Shown here: positions 2 through 23,472 of the stretch, piece after piece | How positions within the stretch are numbered: the stretch's first letter is position 1 | Layout: every line of letters begins with the position of its first letter | Source: a virus | Length of the DNA: 27,293 nucleotides | IMG/VR virus record: IMGVR_UViG_3300030116_007744 | Coordinates: 1 to 27,293 of that record | Direction: 5' to 3' (one strand) | Translations under genes and position numbers: made by a program | Notes under the pieces: generated by a model | Databases searched by the model: none | The model's input: the letters and a program-made list of their open reading frames with translations, nothing else | What the model was told of the DNA's origin: nothing

Positions 2-1153
2 AATGTAGGATTAATTGGTGTTGGACGTTGTGGTTTGCCCATAGCATTGTGCTTTGAACAGAAAGGACACAATGTTATTGCCAGTTCATACAAAGAAAAA
101 TATGTGGCTGACTTGCAGACTAAAAAAATCAATACAACTGAACCTCATGTGCATGAACTGTTACAGAATTCAAAGATTACGTTTACCACAGACAATCAAT
201 ATGTGATAGATCAAAGCGATGTAATTTATATTATTGTGGCCACTCCTAGTCTGCCAACCGGTGATTATGACATGCAGGCCATTGATAACGTGGTTGATGA
301 TATAAAAAAATACAAAGGTAATCTCAAAGACAAATTGTGTATCATTGCCAGCACTACTAATCCTGGATACTGCCAAACTGTTAGTGATACGCTCAAAGCC
401 TACGAATGTGATGTGGTGTATTGTCCCATATATGTGGCACAAGGCGGTGTGTATGAAGATTTTGCAAATCAAGATCATGTCATGGTAGGCACAGATAGTA
501 AACAAGCATTCACAAAAGCCAAAAACTTTTTTGAAACTTTAGTACAAAGCGGAGATCAAATAATTGCATTGAGTTACACAGGCACTGAGATTGTAAAAAT
601 GGCACTGAACTGTTTTTCTACACTCAAAATAAGTTTTGCCAACATGATGGGGCAATTATTATACAAAAGCGGCAGTTGGAAAGACAAAGATGCTTTCTAC
701 AATCTCATGAAATTGAATCCCAATGTAGGCACACGGTTAATAGATTTTGGTTTTGGATATGGCGGTCCTTGTCTTCCACGAGACAATAGGTCATTGGTGA
801 AGTTTGCTGAAAAAATAGGCTACAATTATGAATTAGGCAACATAGTGGATCAATTCAATGACAAGCACGTTGATTTTTTATACGATTACTATTGCACAGA
901 TAACAAAAATAACCTTCCTTATTTCTTTTCCTATATCAGTTACAAAGCAGGTACTGATCTTGACGAGCCTGCACAGCAATATGATCTAGCAGAAATGTTC
1001 TTGAAAAATAATATCCGAGTGTATGTGGCGCCTTCAAAGTTCCTCAACGACAAAGTATACAATCGCCTTAAAACATTGTATCCTGATCTACTTGAAAAAC
1101 AATCGGCACAGGAACTAGACAGTGCCAATGTAAAATATTATAAAATTAATTAA
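2..1153 (+). CDS. UDP-glucose/GDP-mannose dehydrogenase family protein (5' partial)
   Basis: NAD-dependent oxidation of a nucleotide sugar (UDP-glucose, GDP-mannose or a relative) to the uronic acid. The reading frame is open from base 2, so the true start lies just outside the window; probably only a few residues are missing because the Rossmann motif GVGRCG is at visible residues 6-11. A middle helix TEIVKMALNCF is the usual dimerisation/active-site helix. The catalytic cysteine motif GYGGPCLPRDN is intact, with the Cys codon at 770-772. A C-terminal NAD-sugar domain (from about base 930, SYKAGTDLDEPA) is present, so about 383 visible codons cover all three domains, slightly short for the family. 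The internal ATG at 35 is inside the Rossmann motif and cannot be the start. It converges with the minus-strand gene next door with a 1-base gap. Substrate cannot be told from sequence. Role is probably in capsular or surface glycan supply. Confidence 0.9.
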   Translation, partial: NVGLIGVGRCGLPIALCFEQKGHNVIASSYKEKYVADLQTKKINTTEPHVHELLQNSKITFTTDNQYVIDQSDVIYIIVATPSLPTGDYDMQAIDNVVDDIKKYKGNLKDKLCIIASTTNPGYCQTVSDTLKAYECDVVYCPIYVAQGGVYEDFANQDHVMVGTDSKQAFTKAKNFFETLVQSGDQIIALSYTGTEIVKMALNCFSTLKISFANMMGQLLYKSGSWKDKDAFYNLMKLNPNVGTRLIDFGFGYGGPCLPRDNRSLVKFAEKIGYNYELGNIVDQFNDKHVDFLYDYYCTDNKNNLPYFFSYISYKAGTDLDEPAQQYDLAEMFLKNNIRVYVAPSKFLNDKVYNRLKTLYPDLLEKQSAQELDSANVKYYKIN

Positions 1154-2075: not shown

Positions 2076-3218
2076 ATGAATTATTATTGTGCCACCAAAT
2101 TTACTGACATGTATGTGGATGTTCAAAGCAGACAAGTGTACAATTGCTGTAAAGCCATGCCTGAAAGAATTAATTTAGAATGGTTACAAAACAATCCAGG
2201 ACACCTTTTTAACACTCCTACTATGATAAAAGATAGAAAACTAATGTTAGATGATAAAATCAATGCATCTTGTGATTATGGCTGTTACAAGTTTGAGAGG
2301 CAAGGCATAGTGAGTCAAAGAAGCAATGCAGAAAAAGTATTCTATGCTCAGGCGCATTCATCTTTACAAAGTCTCGACATTATCTTATCTAATGACTGTA
2401 GACTAACATGTGCATATTGTGGTCCACAGTGGAGTACAACTTGGTGGCGTGATATAGAAAAAAATGGAAATTACAATTTAGAGACTGTGGACAAAAGAAG
2501 TCAAAATTGGTTTAAATTATTAAGCAAAATGAAACAAAAAAATAGATCAACTAACACTAAATTTTTTGATCTATTGTTACGAGAAATGAAACTAGCAGAC
2601 AAATTAAAATTTGTCAATGTGCTTGGTGGCGAGCCTTTATTACACAATGATTTATCTGCACTTTTAAATGTGGTACCAGATAAAGAAATTACAATTGTGA
2701 CCGGACTTGGAGTTGCTTCTGATAGGCTTAAAAATTTTTTGCAGAAGTATAAAAGTAAAAAAATACGGTTTAAAGTTTCGGCTGAGACAACTGGGAAGTA
2801 TTTTGAATTTTTAAGATATGGAAATAAATGGGAAGAATTTTGTGACAAAATTAAAATGATATCAGATAGTGGTTATGAATTGGTTTTTGGTTCAACTATT
2901 ACAAATATCAGTTTACTTGACTTTGCCAATTTTTATAATTATTTCAACAAAGATTATAAAATTAAAATTCAATTAATAAATGATAAACCATTTTTCTATC
3001 CAAACCTTTTAGATACACAGTCAAAAAATAACTTTAAAAAATGGTACGTGGCAAATCCGCAATGTGATCCAAATAAACTGTTAGCCAGTATTGCAAAACC
3101 AACAGCATCTGAGAATGCAAAGAAAGATCTAGCAAATTTTGTTAAAGAGTTCAGCAGAAGAAGACAAATTGATTTAAGTTTTTTACCAAAACACTTTATA
3201 GATTGGTTATACTCTTAA
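2076..3218 (+). CDS. Radical SAM protein of the phage twitch-domain type
   Basis: 380 aa. The radical SAM cluster motif is CRLTCAYC with cysteines at 108, 112 and 115, and the SAM-binding GGEP motif is at 184-187 (LGGEPLLH), so it should bind a 4Fe-4S cluster and cleave S-adenosylmethionine. Before the radical SAM core there are four extra cysteines, NCC at 24-25 and CDYGC at 66 and 70, in a pattern that resembles a half-SPASM (twitch) auxiliary cluster site placed at the N-terminus. Related twitch-type radical SAM proteins are common in ocean T4-like phages, but the substrate is unknown. The gene is AT-rich (Lys/Asn-heavy C-terminal half). It stands alone between its own late-like box and the next sigma70-like promoter. 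No maturase or peptide substrate gene is obvious next to it. Confidence 0.85.
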   Translation: MNYYCATKFTDMYVDVQSRQVYNCCKAMPERINLEWLQNNPGHLFNTPTMIKDRKLMLDDKINASCDYGCYKFERQGIVSQRSNAEKVFYAQAHSSLQSLDIILSNDCRLTCAYCGPQWSTTWWRDIEKNGNYNLETVDKRSQNWFKLLSKMKQKNRSTNTKFFDLLLREMKLADKLKFVNVLGGEPLLHNDLSALLNVVPDKEITIVTGLGVASDRLKNFLQKYKSKKIRFKVSAETTGKYFEFLRYGNKWEEFCDKIKMISDSGYELVFGSTITNISLLDFANFYNYFNKDYKIKIQLINDKPFFYPNLLDTQSKNNFKKWYVANPQCDPNKLLASIAKPTASENAKKDLANFVKEFSRRRQIDLSFLPKHFIDWLYS

Positions 3219-3255: not shown

Positions 3256-3447
3256 ATGTCCAAAGCATGGCAAATAGAACTTAAATTTCCTGATCATACG
3301 ATAAAATCTTTTGTGTATTCTGATACAGGCACTGATATCAAACAGCGTTTTCAAAACGAAAACATACAAGTAAAAGTGCTGGGTGAAATCGAGGATCCTG
3401 TTGCAGGCACAAAGCCAAAAGCAAAACATAAAGAAAAGTTTGTATGA
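3256..3447 (+). CDS. Small hypothetical protein
   Basis: 63 aa, starts MSKAWQIELKFPDH, then a probable beta-hairpin and an alternating charged segment ending in a Lys-rich tail (KPKAKHKEKFV). No family recognised. First gene of an early-type unit: it lies directly at a sigma70-like promoter and its stop overlaps the ATG of the exonuclease gene (ATGA, 3444-3447), so the two are translationally coupled. Confidence 0.65.
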   Translation: MSKAWQIELKFPDHTIKSFVYSDTGTDIKQRFQNENIQVKVLGEIEDPVAGTKPKAKHKEKFV

Positions 3448-5151: not shown

Positions 5152-5793
5152 ATGACCAAGTTTGTTAGTGTGATAGGCAACGGCGAAAGTAGACGTGGAT
5201 TTGATATAACACCTCTGAAAGGTATTACCACTGTGGTGGGTTGCAATGCGATATTTCGGGATCATAACATGGACTATGTGGTGGCCTGTGATCGTCACAT
5301 GTGTCAAGAAGCAGTAAACACAGTTGGAAAAAACACAACCATATACACCAGGAAAGATTGGTACAAACAGTTTGCTTTTTGGCCTAATGTTAAATGTGTA
5401 CCTGATCTACCTTATGAAGGCGACAAGAGACAAGATGATCCTTTTCATTGGGGCACAGGACAATTTGCCGCTCTAGTAGGACTTAATTTTAAACCCAAAG
5501 CAATATTTTTAATTGCTATGGATCTATACGGTGTTGGCGATAAGAAAGGGCCTGAGGGTGTCAACAACATGTACAAAGGCAGTAAAGGTTACACATATAT
5601 AAAGAAACCTGTTGACCCTCGCTATTGGATATACCAATTTAACAAATTGTTTGAACACAGCGATTGCAGATGGATAGTGGTAAATGAAGAAAACTGGAAA
5701 ATGCCAGAGGAATGGAAAGTGCATAAAAATGTTTTTCAAGAGTCCTACGAAGGACTGGCCAAGTGGATCAATAAACAATTGACAAAAAAATAA
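5152..5793 (+). CDS. NGES-motif Rossmann-like protein, paralogue of the gene at 9345
   Basis: 213 aa. Begins with a nucleotide-binding-like motif (SVIGNGESRRGF, residues 6-17), then VVGCNAIFRDHNMDYVV, and later GTGQFAAL and IFLIAMDLYGV. The same order of motifs occurs in the gene at 9345, so the two are paralogues. The GNG(E/P)S start followed by GCN and a conserved Asp strand resembles the glycosyltransferase-like family containing motility accessory factor/DUF115 proteins and alpha-2,3-sialyltransferases, but this is an inference from pattern only. It may act on surface glycans together with the glycosyltransferase at 7987 and the sugar dehydrogenase at the window start. Confidence 0.7.
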   Translation: MTKFVSVIGNGESRRGFDITPLKGITTVVGCNAIFRDHNMDYVVACDRHMCQEAVNTVGKNTTIYTRKDWYKQFAFWPNVKCVPDLPYEGDKRQDDPFHWGTGQFAALVGLNFKPKAIFLIAMDLYGVGDKKGPEGVNNMYKGSKGYTYIKKPVDPRYWIYQFNKLFEHSDCRWIVVNEENWKMPEEWKVHKNVFQESYEGLAKWINKQLTKK

Positions 5794-6375: not shown

Positions 6376-6443
6376 TGAGAGGACTCAAAGACTTTCATCC
6401 CTCTATAAACACTCTGCAAGTCATCATTAAGGAGAAAAGATGA
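6375..6443 (+). CDS. 22-aa micro-ORF linking two genes
   Basis: Starts at the stop of the previous gene (TAATG) and stops by ATGA overlap with the QueD-like gene. It encodes a 22-residue basic peptide (MRGLKDFHPSINTLQVIIKE, then KR). The Shine-Dalgarno AAGGAG of the following gene is inside its last codons. It may be a real micro-protein or only a translational-coupling leader; there is no homology evidence. Confidence 0.35.
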   Translation: MRGLKDFHPSINTLQVIIKEKR

Positions 6444-6889
6444 CTTACTATTCAACAAAAACATATGGACACAACATAGGACTAGCCTGTGTGTTCAGAC
6501 AACCTAACGCAGATCATTCTCACTGTCATTTGTTACATGGTTACAGTTTGGCCTTTAAATTCACATTTGGATGCAATGAACTGGACAACAAAAACTGGGC
6601 GGTGGACTTTGGTGGACTTAAACCGCTGAAAGCATGGTTAGAAGACAAGTTTGATCATAAAATGGCATTGGACAAAAATGATCCACAGTTTGATAAACTG
6701 AAAGAACTTGAAAAACATGACCTCGCTGAAGTTAGAGTATTTGATGGTGTTGGCGCAGAAATGTTTGCCAAACATGCTTTTGATTTTGCAGATGATCTGA
6801 TTCGTAAACAAACAGATGGTAGATGTTTTGTAGAAAGTGTAGAGTGCATGGAACACGGAGCAAACAGTGCCATCTACTCAAGAAAATAA
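6440..6889 (+). CDS. 6-pyruvoyltetrahydropterin synthase / QueD-like protein with altered zinc motif
   Basis: 149 aa, usual length for the family. Visible family motifs are the catalytic Cys29 and His33 in CHLLHGY, AVDFGGLK (54-61), FDHKMALD (71-78) and a late Glu segment (ESVECMEHG). In QueD and PTPS the motif is CxxxHGH with both histidines binding zinc; here the last His is Tyr35, so one of the three expected zinc ligands is missing. The enzyme would convert dihydroneopterin triphosphate to a 6-carboxy- or 6-pyruvoyl-tetrahydropterin, for 7-deazaguanine or pterin synthesis. No other queuosine-pathway gene is in the window. A strong Shine-Dalgarno AAGGAG (6429-6434) is five bases before the ATG. 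Confidence 0.8.
   Translation: MTYYSTKTYGHNIGLACVFRQPNADHSHCHLLHGYSLAFKFTFGCNELDNKNWAVDFGGLKPLKAWLEDKFDHKMALDKNDPQFDKLKELEKHDLAEVRVFDGVGAEMFAKHAFDFADDLIRKQTDGRCFVESVECMEHGANSAIYSRK
6856..6869 (+). promoter_or_regulatory. Ribosome binding site deciding a GTG start
   Basis: CGGAG at 6856-6860, six-base spacing, then GTG at 6867. No ATG occurs in this frame before codon 37, so GTG is the best start for the following gene. Confidence 0.5.
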
Positions 6890-9009: not shown

Positions 9010-9345
9010 ATGAAATGGTTTGATATAACAGATTCAGCAAAAGCACAAATGGAAAAACTTTTGGAAAAACACCCTGACAAGTATGCTGTGAGTTTGGCAG
9101 TGTTGGGCGGTGGCTGTGCAGGCTTCAAATATGATTGGAATTTTGTAGACAAAAAAGAAGACATTGGCAAAGATGACGAAGTGGTCGATTGGGGCACTGG
9201 ACGTTTTGTGGTAGATGAAACATCTATGATGTATGTGGCAGGTACCAAAATTGACTGGAAAGAAGAAGTGTTTGGAGCACAGTTTGAAATAATCAACCCC
9301 AATGCATCATCAGGGTGTGGTTGCGGTGAGTCATTTGGTGTTTAA
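9010..9345 (+). CDS. A-type iron-sulfur cluster carrier (IscA/ErpA/HesB family)
   Basis: 111 aa, the standard family length. The three cluster-binding cysteines are present: Cys36 in GGGCAGFKYDW and Cys103/Cys105 in SSGCGCGESFG. The central LVVDE-type segment appears as RFVVDETSMMYVAGTKIDW. The protein receives and delivers 2Fe-2S or 4Fe-4S clusters. The start at 9010 is chosen because the family begins with a strand-helix ITDSAKAQMEKLL immediately after it; an ATG at 8929 would add residues belonging to the overlapping gene. Its likely client here is the radical SAM enzyme at 2076, or host Fe-S enzymes. Stop overlaps the next ATG (TAATG). Confidence 0.92.
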   Translation: MKWFDITDSAKAQMEKLLEKHPDKYAVSLAVLGGGCAGFKYDWNFVDKKEDIGKDDEVVDWGTGRFVVDETSMMYVAGTKIDWKEEVFGAQFEIINPNASSGCGCGESFGV

Positions 9346-10103
9346 TGGACACAGCGTTTGTAATTGGCAACGGTGAATCAAGAAATATATTTCCTATAGA
9401 AACACTCAAAGGCAAAGGAGTGGTATGGGGTTGTAACGCAATCTATAGAGATCATCCCGATCTGTGCGATCATATTGTCAGTGTAAATGAAAACATGACT
9501 GCTGAATTACAACAGTGGAAACAAGACTCCGAAAGCACTGTGAAAGTGTACGGACTAGAAGACACACTGGATTGGAATTGGATAATTGAAGGTGACAAGA
9601 CCACCGACGTGCCTGACAAACTTAAATTGTATAGAATTTGGCGTGGAGGCACAACCAAAAATGGTGGCAAAATTAGAACACTGGATTTCAGTGAAGCAAA
9701 AGGGTCAGGAACTTCTGCTGTGGCCATGGCCGCCGACTCAGGAATAAAAAATGTGATTATACTTGCGTTTGACATATTGGGTGCAAGACAATGGGAATAT
9801 GCCGCAGTCGATGGCAGTAGCAGTAGAGAACAAAACAACATCTACAAAAATACTAAAAATTATCCTAGTAGATTGAGTATGAAAGCATATTTAAAGTATG
9901 AATGGATGTATCATTTACGCCAGACATTTCGGCGTTATCCTAATACAAATTTTTATTTTATCAACAGACGTGAATACATAGAATACAATTATTTTTTACC
10001 TGGCTATTTTGACCAACCCAACATTAGTGTTGGAACATATGCAGATCTACAACGATGGGTCAATGGTGAAAAGGACAAGATACAGTGGTGGCCTTTAAAT
10101 TAG
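9345..10103 (+). CDS. NGES-motif Rossmann-like protein, paralogue of the gene at 5152
   Basis: 252 aa. Shares FVIGNGESR (residues 5-13), ETLKGKGVVWGCNAIYRDHP and a later GTSAVAMAADSGIKNVII segment with the 213-aa protein at 5152, including the order and spacing of motifs, so it is a diverged duplicate with a longer C-terminus (FYFINRREYIEY, then a helix with DLQRWVNGEKD). A glycosyltransferase or sialyltransferase-like fold is a guess from the GNGxS and GCNA motifs. It ends in a 9-base convergent overlap with the minus-strand zinc-ribbon gene. Confidence 0.7.
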   Translation: MDTAFVIGNGESRNIFPIETLKGKGVVWGCNAIYRDHPDLCDHIVSVNENMTAELQQWKQDSESTVKVYGLEDTLDWNWIIEGDKTTDVPDKLKLYRIWRGGTTKNGGKIRTLDFSEAKGSGTSAVAMAADSGIKNVIILAFDILGARQWEYAAVDGSSSREQNNIYKNTKNYPSRLSMKAYLKYEWMYHLRQTFRRYPNTNFYFINRREYIEYNYFLPGYFDQPNISVGTYADLQRWVNGEKDKIQWWPLN

Positions 10104-22340: not shown

Positions 22341-22976
22341 ATGGCAAATACATTCACGTGGCGTACCAAATACAAATCAATTATAATTGTTGACGGAGAA
22401 TTATTTCAAAACGAGTACAGTGTAAAACTTTATCTTACTCCTTACACAGCAGATCTACAAGAGCAAACAAAATATTTTGACAGATTAAAAAATTTATTTG
22501 AACAAATTTTTGCAAATACAATTACAACATGGAGGCAGGAACCACTCTATCATCTTTTAAAAGAGTCATCGTCAAATAGATTTATTGAATTACCAAAACC
22601 TCCCTATGATCAAATTATGGCCGCAGTGAATTTTTGCAAAGCAAATACCATAATGGATGGAAAAATATTGATAAACAAATTGGAATTGAGCAGTTGGCAA
22701 GGCGACGGTATTACCTATTCGGTTGACAAAGACAGTAAAGAACTGTTATTATTAGACACTGCCAATTGGTTCTCAGAAAAGTTTGCAAACTTTGATCCTT
22801 GGTGGTTAAGACCAGACACAGCAACATATGATCAAGAATTGGACAAAGGCATCTACACAGGACACTTCAGTTGGACCAAAAACAAAATACCAGTTGACAA
22901 ACGCCACGAAGACCATGCTAAAATATTTGAATTCAACCCAAAGGTTTTAGATGGCGGCAAAGATAAAAACAAATGA
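22341..22976 (+). CDS. Conserved-looking phage protein of unknown function, 211 aa
   Basis: 211 aa from the ATG at 22341; a GTG one codon earlier is also possible and neither has a good ribosome site. Begins with a beta strand (FTWRTKYKSIIIVDGELF), then helical segments (LKNLFEQIFANTITTWR) and a C-terminal part with NWFSEKFANFDPWWLRP. Probably cytoplasmic and soluble. No family recognised. The end overlaps the DnaE-motif gene by 26 bases, suggesting coupled synthesis and possibly a shared role. Confidence 0.65.
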   Translation: MANTFTWRTKYKSIIIVDGELFQNEYSVKLYLTPYTADLQEQTKYFDRLKNLFEQIFANTITTWRQEPLYHLLKESSSNRFIELPKPPYDQIMAAVNFCKANTIMDGKILINKLELSSWQGDGITYSVDKDSKELLLLDTANWFSEKFANFDPWWLRPDTATYDQELDKGIYTGHFSWTKNKIPVDKRHEDHAKIFEFNPKVLDGGKDKNK

Positions 22977-23472
22977 TTATGGTGATGTTATATTCACTGA
23001 GCAAGACGCAATAGATTTACTTTACACAGATCCTGAGTTTGATATTTCTAAATTGTTTTTTGCGGACACTGAACAGTATAAAACAAGTATTAAAGACTTA
23101 GGCATTGATTTACCAAATATTAATACAGTGCCACACAGAGAGTCACTGACTGAATTTGATACTAAGAACATTAACAGTTGGCACATGCCAGAAAAATACT
23201 ACAAAATAAATGTTCTGCAATGGTTGTTGGACAAGTGCCAAAATGACGAAGAGAAACTAAGAGTACAGCACGAGTATGATCTGTTTGAGCAAAAAAGTTT
23301 TATCAAAGTGTTGCAATTTTTGATATACTTTGTTGACACACTGAGAGCCAACAATGTTGTATGGGGTGTGGGCAGAGGATCAAGTGTGGCCAGTTTCTGT
23401 CTTTTTTTGATAGGAGTACACAAGATAAATCCGTTGTTGTACAATTTGGATCACCGTGAATTTCTGCGATGA
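22951..23472 (+). CDS. Orphan DNA polymerase III alpha (DnaE) motif protein
   Basis: 173 aa. The C-terminal third (from about residue 110: YDLFEQKSFIKVLQFLIYFV, then VVWGVGRGSSVASFCLFLIG, then INPLLYNLDHREFLR) follows the palm segment of bacterial DnaE, with the signature GRGS at 141-144 that grips the incoming nucleotide's phosphates, and the KINPLLYNLDHREFL run matching the DxDPLxYxLxFERFL segment. It stops exactly where DnaE continues to its catalytic PD(I/F)DxDF aspartates, so it cannot be a polymerase. The N-terminal two thirds look unlike DnaE. Next gene starts after 27 bases, with no remnant of the missing part, so this looks like a maintained domain rather than a frameshifted gene. 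Confidence 0.75.
   Translation: MAAKIKTNDYGDVIFTEQDAIDLLYTDPEFDISKLFFADTEQYKTSIKDLGIDLPNINTVPHRESLTEFDTKNINSWHMPEKYYKINVLQWLLDKCQNDEEKLRVQHEYDLFEQKSFIKVLQFLIYFVDTLRANNVVWGVGRGSSVASFCLFLIGVHKINPLLYNLDHREFLR

Follow-up and report, generated by a model that had tools for sequence, protein, structure and literature searches.

Auxiliary clusters of twitch enzymes are thought to drain an electron from the substrate radical, and the cysteine pattern of twitch/SPASM domains of the BtrN type is C ... GxxxxC ... CxxC. BtrN oxidises a sugar-like cyclitol, and its four-cysteine auxiliary cluster has been proposed as the electron acceptor (excerpts of PMC9012708). Radical SAM genes have also been described from phage. 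In excerpts of PMC7029224, two pelagimyophages are distinguished by radical SAM cassettes in their host-recognition regions, which contain glycosyltransferases as well, and the freshwater pelagimyophage group reportedly has neither LPS-related nor radical SAM genes. In 2017, a link was proposed between the A-type Fe-S carrier and the 12 radical SAM genes of one T4-like virus (excerpts of PMC5332604).

A literature search found no paper that assigns a reaction to the radical SAM family with an N-terminal twitch, and none that contains the name or number of its NCBIfam model, NF033640. The remarks on Fe-S or radical SAM proteins in excerpts of PMC9301287, PMC7150976 and PMC7678222 have no bearing on this family. 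A twitch at the other end of the chain that keeps its four cysteines is a natural test of the role and place that the domain needs, and many members of the family are found in virus contigs.

The radical SAM gene and its genomic setting

The window, by which we mean the whole stretch of DNA analysed (positions 1 to 27,293 of IMG/VR record IMGVR_UViG_3300030116_007744), is a 27.3-kb virus record with T4-like genes, including those for baseplate-related proteins, a GroES-like head-morphogenesis protein and an exonuclease. It is presumably of marine origin. The features of the radical SAM gene and an Fe-S carrier gene are listed in Table 1. The radical SAM gene is under purifying selection, with a dN/dS of 0.151 relative to the 95%-identical copy at locus L003. 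This is the highest value among the 8 genes compared; the small ORF at 1819-2031 has 0.146 and the remaining six genes have 0.00-0.08.

Table 1. Coordinates of the radical SAM gene, its domains and predicted ligands, and the Fe-S carrier gene in the window
Feature	Position	Strand	Basis
Radical SAM protein with N-terminal twitch domain, 380 aa	2076..3218	+	Intact ORF, ATG start
N-terminal twitch domain, residues 1 to about 90	2076..2345	+	91-domain profile against BtrN; SPASM matches; model pLDDT 92.2
Cys5, predicted auxiliary-cluster ligand	2088..2090	+	Conservation; pairs with BtrN C169
Cys24, predicted auxiliary-cluster ligand	2145..2147	+	427/427; pairs with BtrN C187
Cys25, probably not an obligatory ligand	2148..2150	+	C in 232/427, H in 96
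Cys66, predicted auxiliary-cluster ligand	2271..2273	+	427/427; pairs with BtrN C232
Cys70, predicted auxiliary-cluster ligand	2283..2285	+	427/427; pairs with BtrN C235
Radical SAM core, Pfam PF04055, residues 102-271	2379..2888	+	PF04055 E 8.1e-09; structural alignments
CxxxCxxC, C108/C112/C115, SAM-cluster ligands	2397..2420	+	Sequence, conservation
GGEP motif, residues 184-187, presumed SAM-binding	2625..2636	+	G184 420/427, G185 421/427, E186 418/427
A-type Fe-S carrier (IscA/ErpA-like), context	9010..9345	+	31-36% identity to annotated IscA/ErpA-like proteins; 72% in L196; start codon chosen by us

Several other genes of the window were noted in passing. Positions 6440-6889 (+) encode a QueD-like 6-pyruvoyl-tetrahydropterin synthase. 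The stand-alone protein of 173 aa encoded at 22951-23472 (+) matches a small PHROG family called DNA polymerase from end to end, and also matches short parts of larger DNA polymerases. The ORFs at 5152-5793 and 9345-10103 (both +) are paralogues belonging to phrog_30607, 25% identical by way of L002, and both start with a VIGNGES motif.

The first-pass annotation, made from the sequence of the window, had called the protein a radical SAM enzyme with a CxxxCxxC core. This call is confirmed, as PF04055 scores 36.3 bits over a cut-off of 29.5 and C108, C112 and C115 lie where they had been placed. The full-length predicted structure has a pLDDT of 89.9, and its best structural alignments (Z up to 12.6) span about residues 95-345, mainly the core. 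Core matches to SkfB, BlsE, viperin, anSME, MoaA and others have nearly tied scores (Z about 12), and SuiB, EpeE and ChlB were matched as well. Identity as QueE, viperin or MoaA was rejected, the scores being far under the cut-offs of those models. In BFVD, 23 matches exceed 370 aligned columns at E below 1e-8. They are either nameless or labelled as radical SAM or Fe-S proteins, and most come from uncultured Caudovirales phages; KVP40 and phi-pp2 are among the sources.

A conserved cysteine site before the core

The protein has ten cysteines (C5, C24, C25, C66, C70, C108, C112, C115, C256 and C330), five of which precede the core. To assess their conservation, we scanned viral contigs as well as bacterial and archaeal genomes with DNA motifs, and used an iterated profile to align the homologues recovered. 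From 505 domain hits, 54 were dropped for coverage, 12 were merged as identical and 12 rows were set aside (the window, L002-L006 and L026, being seeds and near kin), which left 427 homologues. Of the 54 hits dropped, 9 did not include the core motif and 24 had <60 residues ahead of it; in the others, the N-terminal cysteine pattern was present in 7 and absent from 14. By coordinates, 12 of these 14 are cut by the end of the locus and 2 are not.

Positions 24, 66 and 70 are each cysteine in 427/427 homologues. Position 5 is cysteine in all 414 homologues with a residue there, the other 13 being gapped, whereas position 25 is cysteine in 232/427 and histidine in 96. In the six near-clade rows displayed, position 25 is cysteine. 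The cruder first-pass profile had given 180/180 for C5 (5 gapped), 182/185 for C24, 184/185 for C66, 185/185 for C70 and 161/185 for C25. The core cysteines C108, C112 and C115 are also found in 427/427; for many rows they belonged to the search motif, so their conservation is partly a matter of selection, and the N-terminal cysteines lie outside that motif. Independently of any alignment, the spacing C-x12-25-C-x20-90-C-x2-3-C-x20-90-CxxxCxxC occurs in 433/439 homologues and in 8/439 when the region before the core is shuffled, so the N-terminal spacing is more than chance.

These counts bear on the annotation's proposal of a second Fe-S cluster at the N-terminus, which it had based on Cys24/25 and Cys66/70 and which would have lost its footing if the extra cysteines varied among homologues. 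The invariance of C24, C66 and C70 leaves the proposal standing. The positions had been given correctly, but C5 had been overlooked and C25 is dispensable, since it is cysteine in only 232 of the homologues; C25 as an obligatory ligand was therefore rejected as improbable. The likely ligand set of the auxiliary site, judged from conservation, is C5/C24/C66/C70.

The N-terminal domain is a predicted twitch

A profile built from 91 N-terminal domains was compared with all PDB sequences and found BtrN first (4m7s and 4m7t, E 2.6e-8 and 4.4e-8); the first hit other than BtrN was an anaerobic sulfatase-maturating enzyme at E 0.17. The aligned stretch of BtrN, residues 163-238, is its C-terminal twitch and contains exactly four cysteines, 169/187/232/235, which are in register with C5/C24/C66/C70 and which we take to be the four that hold the BtrN auxiliary cluster. 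When the domains were scanned singly, 48/91 matched Pfam SPASM (PF13186) at E up to 0.1, with a best value of 3.3e-15; the N-terminal domain of the window protein, scanned alone, gave no match to this family. The majority consensus of the 91 domains includes GxxxxCC. The window protein deviates from the twitch pattern, with QVYNCC lacking the glycine and CxxxC instead of CxxC. It also departs from the location expected of a twitch, C-terminal to the core, as the domain comprises about residues 1-90 and the core residues 102-271.

Structure comparison supports the twitch identity less than sequence does. Residues 1-100 are predicted with a pLDDT of 92.2. Searched by itself with Foldseek, the N-terminal domain has seven matches, none of them significant (E above 7 throughout). 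On structural re-alignment of the predicted domain to twelve chains, only BtrN reached Z 2 (Z 2.9, rmsd 3.8, 79 residues). Taken together, the sequence comparisons strongly support the N-terminal domain as a twitch (half a SPASM domain) homologous to the C-terminal twitch of BtrN. The suggestion that a further Fe-S-type site lies at the N-terminus, at the other end from where SPASM/twitch domains usually lie, is thus upheld at the level of conservation and of the SPASM and BtrN matches. The protein is almost certainly built as a two-cluster radical SAM enzyme, with the predicted auxiliary-cluster twitch before the core.

Family membership and the nearest clade

The NCBIfam model NF033640 ("N_Twi_rSAM, twitch domain-containing radical SAM protein") aligns its positions 3-378 of 398 to residues 3-361 of the window protein. 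We read "N_Twi" as N-terminal twitch, from the model name alone. The score is 151.6 bits against a curated cut-off of 170. Five relatives from the same clade that were scanned also fell below the cut-off (149.5-164.3), and three other phage homologues scored above 300. The NF033640 label would therefore be a loose one for the window protein, which is built like the family and falls under its cut-off.

A tree of 425 sequences places the window protein with L003, L002, L196, L166, L233 and L207 at support 1.0. Gene order around the radical SAM gene is conserved in L196, where 13 shared neighbours are 61-83% identical; identity is 49% for the radical SAM gene itself and 48% for the small ORF at 1819-2031. 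In L166, L233 and L207, the radical SAM gene is near RecA-family, uvsX-like genes. No gene was found that partners the radical SAM gene in all clade loci. The UDP-glucose dehydrogenase encoded upstream in the window (35-1153) was considered as a functional partner and rejected, having no match in L196. A large membrane protein is encoded upstream of the radical SAM region in L002 (2085-3902, +) and L196 (9583-11622, -); by eye, it presumably consists of a CHASE2 sensor and an adenylate-cyclase domain.

Searched by tblastn against 50,697 phage records, the radical SAM protein had no match at 1e-5; at E up to 10, 33 records were matched, 29 of which are Vibrio phages. Three of these were scanned with NF033640, and each contains near full-length matches to it. 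Single-protein scans of viral contigs returned only the same two loci, 95-100% identical. A viral-contig scan with a Vibrio phage homologue gave no match, and a genome scan with another homologue gave no relative.

Copy number and gene neighbours in phage

Two motif scans recovered at least 238 viral loci. Each of the 238 holds at least one homologue, as judged with a profile built partly from these loci, and 120 of the 238 listed have at least two in a stretch of 15 kb or less. In the genome collection, the second motif picked out 22 stretches, 11 of them with a homologue. Across 50 larger homologue-bearing virus records, there are up to 22 family matches per record. The L297 record (G053, 260,723 bp), G013 and G015 have 13, 21 and 22 family matches, many in tandem. 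Near full-length matches to NF033640 number three in KVP40, three in D486 and five in K566.

To count neighbour families, 120 of the 333 non-redundant viral neighbours were sampled at random, with no background set. Among the 25 of 58 families listed (E up to 0.001), the commonest were Radical_SAM (12), LamG (9) and GT7 (8); Epimerase and short-chain dehydrogenase followed with 6 each, perhaps in the same proteins. GT7 genes occur in 8/50 records, each within 2.4 kb of a listed homologue, and were not found in 42/50. One neighbour of a KVP40 homologue was noted as PF00534, and the neighbours in K566 and D486 include, by eye, glycosyltransferase- and nucleotidyltransferase-like proteins. Homologues in KVP40 and D486 are also near QueC-like and nicotinamide phosphoribosyltransferase genes.

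Two homologues have unusual domain compositions. The 904-aa homologue of L041 (4141-6852, -) is an N-terminal-twitch radical SAM protein fused to DUF6492 and Methyltransf_24. The 897-aa protein of L094 (7807-10497, -) seemingly consists of two N-terminal-twitch radical SAM units in tandem, and NF033640 matches two stretches of it.

Proposed reaction and alternatives

In the mechanism that we propose, C5/C24/C66/C70 would hold a fully cysteine-ligated [4Fe-4S] auxiliary cluster and the core cluster of C108/C112/C115 would cleave SAM. The resulting 5′-deoxyadenosyl radical would remove a hydrogen from a substrate carbon, and the radical formed on the substrate would pass an electron to the auxiliary cluster; overall, the substrate would lose two electrons, the course also proposed for BtrN. 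Most speculatively, the substrate may be a sugar, a nucleotide sugar or a surface glycan that the phage alters during infection. The role of the auxiliary cluster as electron acceptor is marginally favoured on present evidence. A sugar or glycan substrate is put forward tentatively, and the reading as a whole, a BtrN-like radical oxidation of a sugar or glycan with an N-terminal auxiliary cluster as electron acceptor, seems to us a possibility that falls somewhat short of even.

This reading is supported by the profile match to BtrN, the four cysteines in register, the SPASM matches, the conservation, the purifying selection and the confident models, and by the sugar-like cyclitol substrate and proposed electron-accepting cluster of BtrN itself (excerpts of PMC9012708). 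Against it count the Foldseek null result, the weak re-alignment to BtrN and the lack of a SPASM match for the window's own domain. A sugar or glycan substrate is favoured by the match of the core to BlsE, which was deposited as a cytosylglucuronate decarboxylase and is among the best core matches, by the GT7, epimerase and dehydrogenase neighbours and by the DUF6492-methyltransferase fusion. It is favoured also by the neighbours in KVP40, K566 and D486 and by the freshwater pelagimyophages reported without LPS-related and radical SAM genes (excerpts of PMC7029224). However, the UDP-glucose dehydrogenase is no stable partner, three clade members lie near uvsX-like genes and SkfB, anSME, viperin and MoaA match the core about as well as BlsE, all of which count against the reading. 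The same is true of GT7, which was not found in 42/50 records, and of the neighbour tally, which lacks a background control. Given the QueC-like and nicotinamide phosphoribosyltransferase neighbours, a nucleotide-related substrate would suit as well.

The main alternative retains the architecture and assigns it a peptide or protein substrate (a phage structural protein, a host protein or a ribosomal peptide), as in SkfB, anSME and EpeE. The core structure matches SkfB, anSME, SuiB, EpeE and ChlB as well as it does BlsE, many SPASM enzymes belong to ribosomal-peptide-modifying pathways (excerpts of PMC9012708) and LamG-fold proteins make up 9/120 of the sampled neighbours. However, PqqD/RRE was found in 0/50 homologue-bearing, fragmentary records, and the two small ORFs that flank the radical SAM gene, used as queries, were not found clade-wide. 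By tblastn at E 1e-4, the ORF at 1819-2031 is present upstream in L196 and is matched at none of three other clade loci; the ORF at 3256-3447 is matched at none of these four. The first-pass annotation had stated that there is no peptide precursor nearby; none was found, in a test limited to these two ORFs and PqqD/RRE. On this evidence, a peptide or protein substrate is rather unlikely.

A different proposal concerns the supply of clusters. The annotation had pointed out an A-type Fe-S carrier in the window, which is indeed present at 9010-9345 with 31-36% identity to annotated IscA/ErpA-like proteins, and had suggested that the phage brings its own cluster supply, an idea already in print in 2017 (excerpts of PMC5332604). 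If so, the radical SAM gene and the carrier would form one phage-borne module of Fe-S supply and use. Both genes are present in the window and in L196 (where the carrier is 72% identical), and the link has been proposed for T4-like viruses. However, they are 5.8 kb apart in the window, and a carrier was detected in 9/50 homologue-bearing records, the other 41/50 showing none, although these are fragments and absence is uncertain. Of the 6 records over 150 kb, also fragments, 3 show no carrier (243, 197 and 151 kb, with 22, 13 and 17 family matches). For comparison, a set was chosen by uvsX, comprising 30 of 80 loci, mostly short contigs, with a query from a homologue-bearing locus. It has a homologue over the cut-off in 7/30 records (11/30 at E up to 0.001) and a carrier in 1/30. 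In favour of the module, the sole carrier-bearing record also has 13 family matches; against it, 6 of the 7 with an over-cut-off homologue show no carrier (fragments again); the set is too small and fragmentary to judge co-occurrence. The suggestion of an own cluster supply is thus weak, and a common module is improbable.

There is also only a slim prospect that the auxiliary cluster, instead of accepting an electron, has an open iron site to which the substrate binds, as that of MoaA does, which would allow a redox-neutral reaction. MoaA, likewise a twitch enzyme, is among the matches to the core, and its auxiliary cluster has three cysteine ligands (excerpts of PMC9012708), but the conserved positions here are four, not three, and the N-terminal profile finds BtrN, with MoaA absent from its five hits at E up to 1. 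A zinc site, or a site with a structural role only, at the N-terminal cysteines is highly improbable. Zinc can be bound by four cysteines that include a CxxC-like pair, and 1/91 N-terminal domains matches a zinc ribbon (E 0.031), but 48/91 match SPASM, an Fe-S family, and the profile finds the Fe-S twitch of BtrN.

Returning to the BtrN-like oxidation of a sugar or glycan, a wider reading would be that the N-terminal-twitch family is carried mainly by phages, some genomes having about 20 diverging copies, and remodels surface glycans of the host through BtrN-like radical oxidation or epimerisation, perhaps blocking competing phages, and that the clade of the window kept the fold but left the curated range. 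This extension is doubtful at present.

Comparison with known systems

The radical SAM genes of pelagimyophages and T4-like environmental viruses form variable cassettes in the host-recognition region and occur many to a genome beside an A-type carrier, and the excerpts of PMC7029224 and PMC5332604 that report them describe neither an N-terminal twitch nor its cysteines. The N-terminal-twitch layout itself is already catalogued as NF033640, with many phage relatives. This model and the window protein share the domain order and a near full-length alignment, but the score is under the cut-off and the model name and description state no reaction. Like the window protein, those of Vibrio phages KVP40, D486 and K566 that belong to the radical SAM group match NF033640 over most of the length of the model, but they are 17-22% identical to it (eight aligned) and have a different genomic setting. 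Finally, BtrN (2-deoxy-scyllo-inosamine dehydrogenase, PDB 4M7S/4M7T) shares with the phage protein the radical SAM core and four twitch cysteines in register. In BtrN the twitch follows the core, whereas in the phage protein it precedes it.
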